The notes beneath the pieces are model-generated. The model worked only from the letters and a program-made list of their open reading frames with translations, was not told where the DNA came from and made no database searches. From an uncultured Lachnospiraceae bacterium (lineage in GTDB: Bacteria > Bacillota > Clostridia > Lachnospirales > Lachnospiraceae): a DNA stretch of 35,704 nt. Made by a program: the position numbers and the translations under genes. Of the stretch, positions 18,155-21,571 are shown one piece after another. The stretch covers positions 1 through 35,704 of the forward strand of contig CAMWLV010000024.1 in assembly GCA_947175175.1 (NCBI GenBank), read 5' to 3'. Each line of letters begins with the position of its first letter. The stretch's first letter is position 1.

Positions 18155-18201
18155 TTTACATGAAATTAGTCCGAAGCAGCTTCGGACTAATTTCATGTAA
18201 A
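18155..18201 (+). repeat. Perfect 22-bp inverted repeat after the HPr gene
   Basis: The 22 bases at 18155-18176 are exactly complementary to 18180-18201, with a 3-nt loop (CAG). There is no T run after it on the + strand, though TTCTTTT lies on its left side. It could stop transcription, stabilise the HPr mRNA end, or be a repeat of mobile origin. Confidence 0.8.
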
Positions 18202-18226
18202 GCAGGTATTGTGCGATGAATAGAGG

Positions 18227-18364
18227 ATACAGTTTGGTCTAGGACTTTGCACTGTGCTGCAAAGTCCGTAAGAAAGCATGGAGGTCGAGGATGCATCAAG
18301 CCAACCGCGAAGCGGTTTTTGCATGGCTTGATGCTTGTAACAGGAAGCCGAAGGCTGAACTGTT
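18227..18364 (+). repeat. Structured intergenic element, copy A (upstream of rfbD)
   Basis: About 138 nt able to form a series of hairpins: GGACTTTGCA (18242-18251) with TGCAAAGTCC (18258-18267), then GTAAGAAA, then GCATCAAGCCA (18293-18303) with TGGCTTGATGC (18324-18334) enclosing ACCGC-GAA-GCGGT and a TTTTGCA bulge, then a short GCC/GGC hairpin, with CAGTT/AACTG closing the outside. The element is flanked by an 11-bp direct repeat ATGAATAGAGG (18216-18226 and 18365-18375), suggesting insertion. It matches copy B at 21420-21555 in structure more than in sequence. Confidence 0.75.
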
Positions 18365-18430
18365 ATGAATAGAGGTTGGTTTTATGAGAAAAGATAACAA
18401 TATGAGGAAAGGAAACAGGTAGGAATGATC

Positions 18431-19297
18431 ATGGCGAAAAAAATAATTGTCACAGGCTGTAACGGACAGCTTGGACGTGCGATCAATAAAATTTATCAGA
18501 ACAGTACAGAGTATGAGTGCGTGAATACAGATGTAAGAGAACTTGACATTACGAAAGTTGACGCAGTAGATCGGTTTGTATCTGATGTGAAACCATATGC
18601 CATCATTAACTGCGCAGCGCATACCAATGTAAATGGCTGTGAGACTGATGTGGACAACGCATACCGAATCAATGCGATCGGACCGCGGAATCTCAGTATT
18701 GCAGCCACAAGATATCATGCAAAGCTGATGCATATTTCTACGGATTATGTGTTTGATGGACATGCCAGTGCGCCTTATACAGAGTTTGATGCACCAGATC
18801 CAAAGGCTGTGTATGGAAAGACAAAGCTTGCCGGTGAAAATTTTGTGAAAGAGTTTGCAAGGGAATACTTTATTATCCGCACTGCATGGCTGTATGGCGA
18901 CGGGAAAAATTTTGTCAAAACGATGCTGGGATTGTCAGAGAATCATGATAAAGTGACAGTGGTTGGGGATCAGTTTGGATCGCCGACAAGTGCTGATGAA
19001 CTTGCGAAGGCGATTGCATATCTGCTTCCGACAGACAACTTTGGTCTGTTTCATGGCACCTGTGAGGGCATAACGAACTGGGCTGATTTCACAAGGGAGA
19101 TTTACCGGCTTGCGGGAAAGTCTACAGTGGTTGAGACAGTCACGACAGAGCAGTATGACAAAAATGTGGCAGGGGTCGTTGCGCCCAGACCAGCATACTC
19201 TGTATTGGAAAACTATATGTTGAAACTCACGACGGATTATATGTTCGTGGATTGGGAAAAGGCAATTGCAGAATATATAAAGGACTTGTCTTTCTGA
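18431..19297 (+). CDS. rfbD: dTDP-4-dehydrorhamnose reductase RfbD
   Basis: A 288-residue short-chain dehydrogenase-type enzyme making dTDP-L-rhamnose. The start at 18431 is preferred to the in-frame ATG at 18425 because AGGTAGGA abuts the latter. Features: nucleotide-binding 'VTGCNGQLGRA', 'VNTDVRELDIT', the catalytic 'STDYVFDG' and 'YGKTKLAGE' (Tyr and Lys), and 'PRPAYSVLEN' near the C-terminus, which is characteristic of RfbD. The other three dTDP-rhamnose genes (rfbA, rfbB, rfbC) are not in the window. It leads the sugar-nucleotide set ahead of gmd and fcl, and structured element A lies just upstream. Confidence 0.93.
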   Translation: MAKKIIVTGCNGQLGRAINKIYQNSTEYECVNTDVRELDITKVDAVDRFVSDVKPYAIINCAAHTNVNGCETDVDNAYRINAIGPRNLSIAATRYHAKLMHISTDYVFDGHASAPYTEFDAPDPKAVYGKTKLAGENFVKEFAREYFIIRTAWLYGDGKNFVKTMLGLSENHDKVTVVGDQFGSPTSADELAKAIAYLLPTDNFGLFHGTCEGITNWADFTREIYRLAGKSTVVETVTTEQYDKNVAGVVAPRPAYSVLENYMLKLTTDYMFVDWEKAIAEYIKDLSF

Positions 19298-19314
19298 CAA
19301 ACTATATGTATACT
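19286..19314 (+). promoter_or_regulatory. Possible promoter of gmd
   Basis: TTGTCT (19286-19291, within the 3' end of rfbD), a 17-bp spacer and TATACT (19309-19314). It would give gmd-fcl its own start in addition to any read-through from rfbD. Confidence 0.45.
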
Positions 19315-19366
19315 AAAAGAAAAATGGAATATTGTGGTTAAGTATAAGAAAGGAATCAAGTAAGAT

Positions 19367-20449
19367 ATGAATAATATAGCATTGATCACTGGAATCACGG
19401 GGCAGGATGGGTCTTATCTGGCAGAGTTTCTGCTTGCGAGGGGATATGAGGTGCATGGTCTGATCAGAAGGCACAGTATATCAAACACGATGCGCATCGA
19501 TCATCTGATCAAATCAGAGTACTACAAGGTAAAGTTTTTTCTGCATTTTGCAGATACGACAGACTCTTCCAATCTGATGCGGATTATCGGAGAGATCAGA
19601 CCGACCGAAGTGTATAATCTTGCTGCACAGTCTCATGTGGGGGTGTCGTTTGAGGTTCCAGAGTACACTGCGGATGCGACGGGTGTCAGCACATTGAAGC
19701 TGTTGGAGGCGATCCGGGTAAATGGCGGTAACTGCAGATACTACCAGGCATCTACGTCAGAGCTTTTTGGAGGGCTTCCAGAGACAGCGCCGCAGAGTGA
19801 GACGACGCCGTTTTATCCCAAGAGTCCTTATGGTGTAGCAAAGCTGTATTCATATTGGATTACGGTCAATTACAGAGAGTCTTACAATATGTTTGCGTGC
19901 AACGGAATATTGTTTAACCATGAATCGCCGCGGCGCGGTGAGAATTTTGTGACCAGAAAGATTACGCTCGCCATTGCAAATATCATCGCAGGAAAACAGG
20001 ACAAGCTTTCCTTGGGAAATATGAATGCCAAGAGAGACTGGGGATTTGCGGGCGACTATGTGGAAGGAATGTGGCTGATGCTTCAGCAGAATGTTTCTGG
20101 TGACTATGTGCTTGCCACCAATGAAACACATACAGTACGCCAGTTTGTTGAGGCGGCATTTGGAGAGCTCGGCATTGCCATTCGCTGGGAAGGCGAGGGT
20201 GTTGGCGAGAAAGGATATGACGCTGGGACAGGGAAGCTGCTTGTCGATGTCAATCCTGAGTTTTACCGTCCGGCAGAAGTGGAATTTCTCTGGGGAAATC
20301 CTGCTAAGGCGGAGAAGGAGCTTGGCTGGAAACGAAAGGTTGATTTCAGAGGGCTTGTGTCTATGATGATGGACGCAGACATGAGAGCGGTCACGGGAAT
20401 GTCCTGTGTACAATATAAAAACAGCAAGGACGGAGGAAGCAATGAATAA
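19367..20449 (+). CDS. gmd: GDP-mannose 4,6-dehydratase
   Basis: A 360-residue extended SDR enzyme turning GDP-mannose into GDP-4-keto-6-deoxymannose. Visible are the cofactor loop '[17 protein letters not shown]', the GMD-specific '[14 protein letters not shown]', '[12 protein letters not shown]', the catalytic 'STSELFGG' and '[10 protein letters not shown]', and '[17 protein letters not shown]', which together are diagnostic. The length is typical. An AAAGGAA ribosome site precedes it. The stop overlaps fcl by 8 nt, so the two enzymes of GDP-L-fucose synthesis are coupled. Confidence 0.97.
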
Positions 20450-21383
20450 GTCGGACAAGATATATATAGCAGGGCACAGAGGACTTGTGGGTTCTGCTAT
20501 TGTGAGAAACCTTGAAGCAAAGGGATATACGAATGTGATCGGCAGGACGCACAGAGAGCTTGACCTAACAAACCAGCAGGCAGTGAAAGCGTTTTTTGAG
20601 ACGGAGCGGCCGGATGTGGTTGTGCTTGCAGCGGCAAAGGTTGGTGGAATCAATGCCAACAACACGACACCGGCAGAGTTTGCCTACGAGAATATGCAGA
20701 TTCAGTGCAATGTGATCAAGTGTTGTCACGACTATCAGGTTAAGAAGCTTTTATTCCTTGGAAGCACTTGTATCTATCCAAGGATGGCGCCCCAGCCGAT
20801 TCCAGAGGATGCACTGCTTACGGGACCTTTGGAGGAGACAAACGAGGCATATGCAATCGCAAAGATCTCTGGTCTGGAGATGTGCAAATTCTACAAGAGA
20901 CAGTACGGTGATGATTTTATCAGCTGTATGCCGACAAATCTCTATGGACCGTATGACAATTATGATTTGTCGGGATCCCATGTTATGCCGGCGATGATTC
21001 GGAAATTTCATGATGCGAAGATAAACAATGCACCGAGCGTAGAGTTGTGGGGAACGGGAACACCGCTGCGCGAGTTTTTATATGTGGATGACATGGCGGA
21101 TGCCTGCGTGTTCCTGCTGGAACATTATGATGGAGAGCAGCATGTAAATATCGGCACTGGCAGGGAAGTGACAATTAAGGAGCTGGCAGAGACAGTTCAG
21201 CGTGTGGTGGGATATCAGGGGGAGATTGTATGGAACCAGGATATGCCGGATGGTACACCGCGAAAACTGACAGATGTGACAAAGCTTCATAACCTTGGAT
21301 GGACGCACAAGGTAGAACTTGAGGAGGGTGTGCAGCTTGCCTACGACTGGTTTAAGGAGAATGTGAAAGACGCCAGACTATAG
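20442..21383 (+). CDS. fcl: GDP-L-fucose synthase
   Basis: A 313-residue epimerase/reductase that finishes GDP-L-fucose. The start at 20442 is set by GGAGG (20432-20436). Motifs: '[11 protein letters not shown]', '[13 protein letters not shown]', the catalytic 'GSTCIYP' and 'EAYAIAK', '[10 protein letters not shown]' and 'LREFLYVDD', all typical of Fcl/WcaG. It overlaps gmd by 8 nt. The glycan made by the genes downstream therefore probably contains L-fucose, given a GDP-mannose supply from elsewhere. Confidence 0.96.
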
Positions 21384-21419
21384 CGAAATGACTGAGGAGT
21401 GCTACAGGGGTAAATTAAA

Positions 21420-21555
21420 TGTTACTGTTCATATCAGGACTTAGCATTTACTGCTAAGTCCGTAAGAAAACGTACAGTCAGCAGGTAAAAATCCATTTGC
21501 GAAGCAAATTTTGCATGGATTTTTACTCGTTACTGGAACGGAGTGAACAGTAACA
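21420..21555 (+). repeat. Structured intergenic element, copy B (upstream of the Spo0A-like gene)
   Basis: About 136 nt homologous in plan to copy A: outer TGTTACTGTTCA (21420-21431) with TGAACAGTAACA (21544-21555); GGACTTAGCA (21437-21446) with TGCTAAGTCC (21452-21461); GTAAGAAA; GTAAAAATCCA (21485-21495) with TGGATTTTTAC (21516-21526) enclosing TTTGC-GAA-GCAAA and TTTTGCA. A repeated AATTAAAT borders both ends. It ends 16 nt before the next start codon. Confidence 0.75.
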
Positions 21556-21571
21556 ATTAAATTAGGGTGTG

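Follow-up and report, generated by a model that had tools for sequence, protein, structure and literature searches.

A structured interspersed element of Lachnospiraceae, probably a non-autonomous DNA transposon with a selected fold

Results

Two copies of one element in a single window

The window analysed here, a stretch of 35,704 nucleotides from an uncultured Lachnospiraceae bacterium (GenBank assembly GCA_947175175.1, contig CAMWLV010000024.1), carries two copies, A (141 bp) and B (134 bp), that represent two subfamilies of one interspersed structured element. The number of copies found, their ends, the flanking duplications, the covariation of the stems and the lack of an Rfam match indicate, with a probability that we put at about 0.82, that A and B are subfamilies of one non-autonomous DNA transposon of Lachnospiraceae, of the class of miniature inverted-repeat transposable elements (MITEs), with a selected fold, and not a gene-specific riboregulator. 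From 5' to 3', the element consists of a terminal inverted repeat, GTWACWRTTCAS, followed by hairpin I, the sequence GTAAGAA, a variable hairpin II and a right-end palindrome.

A first-pass annotation, made from the letters of the window, had recognised the two copies and their two stems, as well as two unchanged parts, GTAAGAAA and the TTTTGCA bulge; all of these lie where it had placed them. Two of its proposals, that the copies are a transposable structured repeat and that a folded nucleic acid is under selection, are supported, the first by many copies with inverted-repeat ends and 8-bp target duplications at differing sites with differing flanks, the second by covariation over many copies. 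Many further copies, in varied sites and with target duplications, were found when this and other Lachnospiraceae genomes were searched, also with a covariance model as it had suggested, and covariation was found again when more sequences were aligned. Two features are additions to that description: the element has inverted repeats at its ends, and its right end forms a separate palindrome (hairpin III).

The element is present in many copies and is confined largely to one family

BLAST searches of the genome from which the window comes (4.1 Mb in 249 contigs) gave 35 matches to A at E ≤ 1, some of them parts of one copy, and the two-copy pattern is therefore beyond chance. A covariance model restricted to the left end (R1, comprising the inverted repeat, hairpin I and GTAAGAA), built from 25 sequences, found at least 18 left ends in the same genome. 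Among 299 genomes of the window's family, 13 had a BLAST match at E ≤ 1e-5, in copies that keep the plan and have other stem letters, and 40 (31 of the 245 good ones) had R1 matches at E ≤ 1e-5, with at least 18 matches in each of seven genomes. A class-wide draw of 391 genomes, in which some of the family were included, contained two with an R1 match at E ≤ 1e-6: the genome that contains the window and a second member of its family. At least 119 stretches were returned by a pattern scan of named genomes; their titles are mostly Lachnospiraceae, together with further genera that we take to belong to that family, and a few are labelled Eubacterium, Clostridium, Clostridiales, Clostridia or Oscillospiraceae. 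In one genome, G250, the tip motif, which occurs twice per copy, matched 145 times (83 + 62) against 2 + 0 for the reversed control. When one subfamily was used as the query, four unannotated phage records matched at E ≤ 0.01 and no plasmid record did; a pattern scan of viral contigs gave one match. No Rfam model (release 15) matched within the window above its gathering score, and the only match at E ≤ 1 in 14 further loci was to a snoRNA (E 0.38) and fell outside the element. The element is thus widespread in Lachnospiraceae genomes and unnamed by Rfam.

Insertion duplicates 8 bp of the target

The ends of 148 copies were set by the inverted-repeat motif alone, with the flanks ignored. The 8 bases on the two sides then agreed at 7 or 8 positions in 99 copies, perfectly in 67, while shifted controls reached 7/8 or better in 4 of 1184 comparisons. 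Agreement per base was 0.73–0.84 at bases 1–8 and dropped at base 9 to 0.12, which sets the length of the duplication at 8 bp. The targets of those 99 copies comprise 96 distinct 8-mers and are 70% A+T. Mobility by an insertion that duplicates 8 bp is shown by comparison, from the flanking duplications alone. Three hallmarks of a MITE are found together: terminal inverted repeats, a target duplication of constant length and a high copy number at unrelated sites.

In the window, copy A occupies 18226..18366 on the plus strand and is flanked by GAATAGAG at 18218..18225 and 18367..18374, an 8/8 match that leaves a span of 141 bp. Copy B (21421..21554, plus strand, from sequence and alignment) lies between two occurrences of AATTAAAT, at 21413..21420 and 21555..21562, identified by flank comparison. 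The existence of both copies had been called correctly, with limits (18227-18364 and 21420-21555) that needed these small corrections. Direct repeats had likewise been noted at the borders of both copies, where they are indeed present, but as 8-bp duplications; in the 11-bp repeat claimed for A, the excess consists of the element's own inverted-repeat end bases and a chance match.

Placement was assessed with simple open reading frame (ORF) calls, whose starts are over-extended. From the 148 copies, 20 were dropped because of a short flank. Of the 128 copies with enough flank, 99 lay between ORFs, 25 close to the start or stop of an ORF and 2 in mid-ORF, and 2 that had no ORF on one side were left unclassed, so that 124 of 128 are intergenic or near an ORF edge. 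The next start lies a median of 61 nt away and the previous stop a median of 27 nt away. The 27 copies called 'inside' an ORF were excluded from the orientation analysis below; 16 of them are no more than 150 nt from an over-extended start, 9 are near a stop and 2 are in the middle.

The stems stay paired while their letters change

In copy A (plus strand), hairpin I lies at 18242..18267, with a stem formed by 18242-18251 and 18258-18267 (predicted fold and covariation), and is directly followed on its 3' side by the conserved GTAAGAAA at 18268..18275, as seen in alignments of copies. Hairpin II spans 18293..18334; its outer stem (18293-18303 / 18324-18334) is given by the predicted fold and by the family-wide stem count, and the predicted fold also places an inner stem with a GAA triloop at 18304-18316 and the 3' bulge TTTTGCA at 18317-18323. 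Hairpin III, the right-end palindrome that contains the right inverted repeat, extends over 18337..18366 (alignment and predicted fold). The corresponding parts of copy B, also on the plus strand, are hairpin I at 21437..21461 (predicted stem 21437-21446 / 21452-21461), the conserved GTAAGAAA at 21462..21469 in the copy alignments, hairpin II at 21485..21526 (predicted outer stem 21485-21495 / 21516-21526) and hairpin III, an aligned palindrome of the form GTTACTG...CAGTAAC, at 21529..21554. When folded as RNA and compared with 200 shuffles, A gave a z-score of -4.65 and B of -9.67, and none of the 200 shuffles was as good for either copy.

Hairpin I provided strong evidence of selection on the fold. 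In a MAFFT alignment of 25 left ends (24 distinct), 5 of 11 pairs had changed on both sides while 98.1% of cells were paired; the covariation score was 0.327 against 0.097 in shuffles, and three of five measures exceeded all 500 shuffles. In 82 matches to the R1 model, 10 of 11 pairs had changed on both sides with 96.9% of cells paired, all five measures exceeded all 500 shuffles, and the covariation score was 0.451, compared with 0.143 for shuffles and no more than 0.089 after sliding of the partner. These 82 matches came from 75 sources hand-picked among more than 470 loci, their alignment was fitted to the R1 model, and most of the copies on which R1 was trained are among them. The apex of the hairpin, GCA-YTTR-C-TGC, changes little, its innermost Y-R pair being C-G (31) or U-A (48). 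Because the stems stay paired while their letters change between lineages, the fold appears to be required for the element's spread or persistence.

Hairpin II is nearly unconstrained in sequence. Of the 71 regions left after near-identical ones had been merged, 55 had an unbroken stem of at least 8 pairs, which 1.4% of dinucleotide shuffles also had; CGNAG occurred in 56 of the 71, a count made without a control for the motif. Its MAFFT alignment was out of register at the stem ends and was excluded from the counts. Hairpin III shows a switch between A-U and U-A from one subfamily to the other. The right inverted repeat can pair either inside hairpin III or with the left repeat, and the predicted folds of A and B differ here: B folded alone pairs the right repeat with the left repeat and not within hairpin III.

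Two further pairings were considered and rejected. An H-type pseudoknot between the loop of hairpin I and the stretch after GTAAGAAA looked good in some A copies and was broken in several others (by eye), and a pairing of the loop YTTRC with GTAAG was judged sterically impossible in cis and is broken in GTACG variants.

The plus strand, transcription and a possible role in host transcripts

A set of 110 copies, for which a flank match of at least 6/8 was required and which was therefore left out of the duplication statistics, was used to compare the strands. For 74 of the 110, the plus strand had a better predicted fold than the minus strand. Hairpin I, obtained from 105 of them, contained 18 G-U against 3 A-C combinations on the plus strand, in a sample collected partly through an RNA model that could favour G-U. 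In 91 regions of hairpin II, which lies outside the R1 model, the counts were 45 G-U to 2 A-C on the plus strand and 19 to 14 on the minus strand; as the copies are related, these are not independent events. The folded strand is likelier to be the plus strand.

Between co-directional genes, the plus strand ran along transcription in 47 copies and was opposed to it in 18 (p = 0.0004), with ratios of 48:17 and 46:20 at other ORF cut-offs, and the transcribed fold may therefore matter too. Replication was considered in G250, some copies of which also belong to the orientation set. There 23 of 38 copies had their plus strand on the G-rich strand; of the 14 copies between divergent genes, three of which form one tandem array, 6 did. 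Between co-directional genes of G250, transcription and the G-rich strand coincided in 14 of 15 sense and 4 of 5 antisense copies and are inseparable. No fixed orientation to the replication fork was seen in the few copies of this one genome. The strand comparisons favour the plus strand and an involvement of transcripts, and the hairpin may act as RNA or as DNA. The CGNAG triloop is a motif of a very stable DNA mini-hairpin and is best known from DNA.

These results bear on the alternative that the plus-strand RNA, lying in 5' leaders or between cistrons, serves the host transcript through protection, processing or control of translation, mobility having spread the element and selection keeping its sense orientation. 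We regard this as possible rather than probable. It would account for the orientation of 47 of 65 co-directional copies, for the lack of a replication effect where one is separable (23/38, and 6/14 between divergent genes), for the excess of G-U over A-C on the plus strand and for the short median distances to the neighbouring start and stop, and the sections of the literature available to us report that ERIC, Correia and BOX elements affect transcripts (PMC2229807, PMC3049150). However, the sites vary between copies, the bias could also reflect harm done by the minus orientation, the replication control rests on the 14 divergent copies that include the tandem array, and the distances depend on over-extended ORF calls. 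The suggestion of a cis-acting RNA in the first-pass annotation accordingly divides in two: as the reason for the element's existence it does not fit the varied sites and flanks, while an effect on the host transcript is possible in view of the placement between ORFs or near their edges and of the 47:18 orientation.

Candidate mobilising transposases

Transposase loci were examined for pairs of facing element-type tips. IS66 insertion sequences (ISs) have ends in GTAA and make an 8-bp duplication. The window's own genome had one broken match to IS66, and 10 matches were present in 4 of 12 genomes; no tip pair was found at 11 loci, where many left ends lay beyond the flank examined, and the likely right ends at four loci in three relatives (by eye) were CGCTTAC (3) and CGTTTAC (1), unlike those of the element. 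IS256 matched in 7 of 11 genomes with no tip pair bounding any match, and the left end in G250 was GGTAGTG (by eye). Neither family is supported as the mobiliser. In 1.38 Mb of collected loci (overlaps included), no tip pair 0.5–7 kb apart had a 7/8 duplication. A tip pair 2.2 kb apart in G250 (L176, partly masked) enclosed no ORF recognised as a transposase, with no family search run. DDE_Tnp_1 matches were present in 11 of 12 genomes, and among the 30 such loci examined only an IS4 of G250 lay between exact tips, with outer flanks that agreed at 5/8.

Eubacterium plexicaudatum ASF492 (6.7 Mb) has 36 exact tips, all on its 6.35-Mb contig. Three kinds of unit lie between its facing tip pairs: structured copies, units of 313 bp and a single 1.8-kb unit that encodes an IS4-family transposase. 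The ends of this last unit (L325:591-2413) are identical over 32 bp, start with GTTACTGTTCACAC like the structured elements, and are flanked on both sides by the perfect 8-bp duplication AATTTCTG. Its transposase, of 450 amino acids, matches NCBIfam IS4 above the cut-off and Pfam DDE_Tnp_1. Beyond the outer bases, about 14, no subterminal match between the element and L325 was found. Seven further single-tip stretches of ASF492 held structured copies and solo palindromes and no other transposase unit. The same genome contains 121 DDE_Tnp_1 matches, many of equal score and length, as if copies of a few ISs.

That an IS4-family transposase of this kind mobilises the element is a tentative proposal, which we hold to be rather doubtful. 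Among the 36 tips, the sole facing pair more than about 0.3 kb and less than 5 kb apart is the one that bounds the L325 unit, with the same 14 outer bases and an 8-bp duplication. Two 313-bp units (L326, L327) have nearly the same ends at other sites, with flank repeats of 7/8 and 8/8 (by eye), and a second IS of the clade (L353) has symmetric tips and a 7/8 flank repeat. Relatives of the L325 transposase were found in 50 of the 299 family genomes, but among the 37 of their loci examined the IS mostly begins with CAATGTCATT, lacks such tips and, where read by eye, makes a duplication of about 10 bp; in 8 of these loci, the IS borders on an element-type tip at one end or both (by eye). Moreover, G140 has at least 18 left-end matches and no DDE_Tnp_1 match, and 29 of the 40 genomes with the element have no listed match to the transposase. 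The clade and the element share 11 genomes where 6.7 were expected (p = 0.047), a weak association.

The element is also a landing site for IS4-type ISs. IS4-family ISs with ends near CAATGTCATTWAGTTAA and duplications of about 10 bp (by eye) sit inside the element's end, at the fixed position N6-GAAC^AGTWAC, in L351, L352, L354 and L376, and also in L356 with a decayed duplication; elsewhere such ISs are often found in palindromes. Because several relatives insert in this way, the tips of L325 may be captured element sequence, perhaps through IS insertion into both ends of an element followed by loss of the middle.

Variants, relics and the host locus

Several side observations concern the range of forms. 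Further subfamilies in ASF492 (L332, L333, L340, L342) have very different hairpin I stems (CCCCAGC..GCTGGGG; CCCTGTTCAAGCA..TGCTTGGACAGGG), retain the tip CTTGC-TG (CCTGC-TG in one) and have no GTAAGAA. Variants of 211 bp (L137 and L139, in G276) carry extra hairpins in the hairpin II region and are flanked by 8/8 or 7/8 duplications. In the window's own genome, some copies (C2, C29, C59 and C208) have an extra palindrome like ATGGCTTATACAAGCCA beside hairpin I. Other copies there (C23:3165-3460, C21:2554-2871, C103:14297-14595, C3:53455-53894) are interrupted by other small palindromic repeats, one of which starts with CTAGTACTCCATCCAGACAGAAATTGG, or fused with a B-type copy, and this genome seems to hold several nested MITE families. 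Solo right-end palindromes of 27–29 bp were found at L176:2912-2938, L072:1501-1529 and L471:3509-3537, the first flanked by the perfect 8-bp duplication ATCAATCA; they may be relics of deletion between the direct repeats GTAACWG in the left end and hairpin III.

A and B both lie in a polysaccharide locus; as had been annotated, A is upstream of rfbD and B of a Spo0A-like gene. Neighbouring gene products were identified for these window copies. A has an HPr-like gene on one side and an RmlD (rfbD-like) gene on the other; B lies between an Epimerase-family gene, presumably GDP-fucose-synthase-like since a GDP-mannose dehydratase is encoded next to it, and one whose product has the C-terminal domain of Spo0A. 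No terminator-like or promoter-like sites were found within copy A or copy B. Directly 3' of the HPr gene and 5' of A, at 18155-18201, is a 47-bp palindrome (46 of 47 bases self-complementary), which is absent from the terminator-like calls for the window.

Discussion

We propose that the element is moved by a transposase supplied in trans, which would recognise the inverted repeats GTWACWRTTCAS and insert the element through an 8-bp staggered cut, mostly between genes. The plus-strand interior is predicted to fold into hairpin I, the end palindrome and, between them, a long hairpin II that includes a CGNAG mini-hairpin and bulges asymmetrically on its 3' side. Covariation indicates that the fold is maintained; that the fold itself is needed for spread or persistence is our reading of its use, the likeliest being that the transposase or a host factor recognises the folded strand when the element is mobilised. 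In transcripts of neighbouring operons, the element would for the most part be a passenger that is tolerated, more readily so in the plus orientation. A bolder version, to which we give only limited credence, holds that transposition depends on the folded plus strand, as RNA or extruded DNA, and that the hairpins direct or license an otherwise ordinary cut-and-paste transposase that makes 8-bp staggered cuts. If so, a gene-less element would steer a trans-acting transposase by structure and not by sequence, with the apex GCA-YTTR-C-TGC, the CGNAG mini-hairpin and the TTTTNNATGG bulge as structural cues. We know of few MITEs with evidence of selection on the inner fold, and the element therefore offers a testable case of a structure needed for mobility.

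Several points weigh against the reading of the element as a MITE-class transposon whose fold is selected. The search brought up no autonomous element that shares its interior, and every transposase remains a candidate. The orientation relative to transcription (47:18) is not random, which a pure passenger would not predict. Of the five measures applied to the MAFFT alignment of 25 left ends, those for double-sided pair changes (reached by 41 of 500 shuffles) and for further pair types (reached by 95 of 500) lay within the shuffles. Copies within one genome are related, so that shuffle controls overstate their independence, and some of the sampled copies were collected with the RNA model R1 and with a pattern in which hairpin I is partly fixed. 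Finally, 29 of the 148 copies agree at no more than 4 of 8 flank bases (18 at no more than 3), which is expected of old copies and is unexplained for each individually.

Two other explanations fared worse. A REP (repetitive extragenic palindromic) or IS200/IS605-like system, which relies on a tyrosine transposase to mobilise hairpins of single-stranded DNA, would suit the hairpins at the ends and the CGNAG motif in 56 of 71 hairpin II regions (counted without a control). Such systems are not known to duplicate their target, however, and the 8-bp duplications largely refute this explanation; nor did the copies of G250, the single genome examined for this, show a clear orientation relative to the G-rich strand. 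It is highly improbable. Least probable of all is a conventional riboswitch-like RNA fixed upstream of certain gene classes, which the position of both window copies upstream of genes in one polysaccharide locus might suggest; as a general explanation it is contradicted by the many copies per genome at unrelated sites, with target duplications and in both orientations.

With a strong fold placed beside many ORF starts, the element bears on gene annotation, on the reading of RNA-seq data and on strain comparison. The first-pass annotation knew of no matching family, in agreement with the Rfam searches, and the literature searched, main texts without supplements, contained no description of this one. 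The kind of element, a structured MITE, is known and already in print, as are the 'mobile/repeat sequence candidates' discussed below; the family is in none of the catalogues searched.

Like the element, the mobile/repeat sequence candidates of Narunsky et al. 2024, such as MRSC-65-2, are covarying structured motifs; the portions of that report available to us describe 250 of them, often with dozens of copies per genome, presumed selfish and with the DNA or RNA form left open (PMC11109978). MRSC-65-2 has one long stem and UYCCGG repeats and occurs in diverse phyla, unlike the element (PMC11109978); the element is set apart from the candidates by their descriptions and not by their sequences, and an overlap is possible. 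bcr1 of Bacillus cereus, with up to 130 copies, resembles the element in its mobile features, high copy number and restriction to one host group, and the element's size falls within the 100–400 bp of bcr repeats; the excerpted account ties bcr mobility to TTTAT motifs and a possible site-specific mechanism, whereas the element has 8-bp duplications and inverted-repeat ends (PMC6542083). BOX of Streptococcus pneumoniae is likewise structured, high in copy number and composed of modular variants, and its mobilisation by an IS with similar ends has been proposed in the part of the work consulted, in a different host group (PMC3049150). With the L325 IS4 of ASF492, the element shares the outer 14 bases, GTTACTGTTCACAC, and the 8-bp duplication; the rest of the L325 ends (CAATGTCATTTACTTAA) and its interior are unrelated to the element, and the relatives of L325 make duplications of about 10 bp (by eye).

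The closest likeness is to MITEs as a group, which, in the extracts available, have inverted repeats, target duplications and stable transcript folds (PMC10969869, PMC2229807). QMITE2 of Coxiella, with repeats of 7–9 bp, Correia/NEMIS, ERIC and RUP are all, like the element, short, gene-less and intergenic, with inverted-repeat ends, target duplications and stable predicted transcript folds (PMC10969869, PMC2229807). As a point of difference, most such families have TA at their termini according to the second of these sources (PMC2229807). As far as those descriptions go, the element differs from them in its ends and sequence, in a short end repeat of about 12–14 bp, in its palindromic right end and in a fold that is backed by covariation across many genera.

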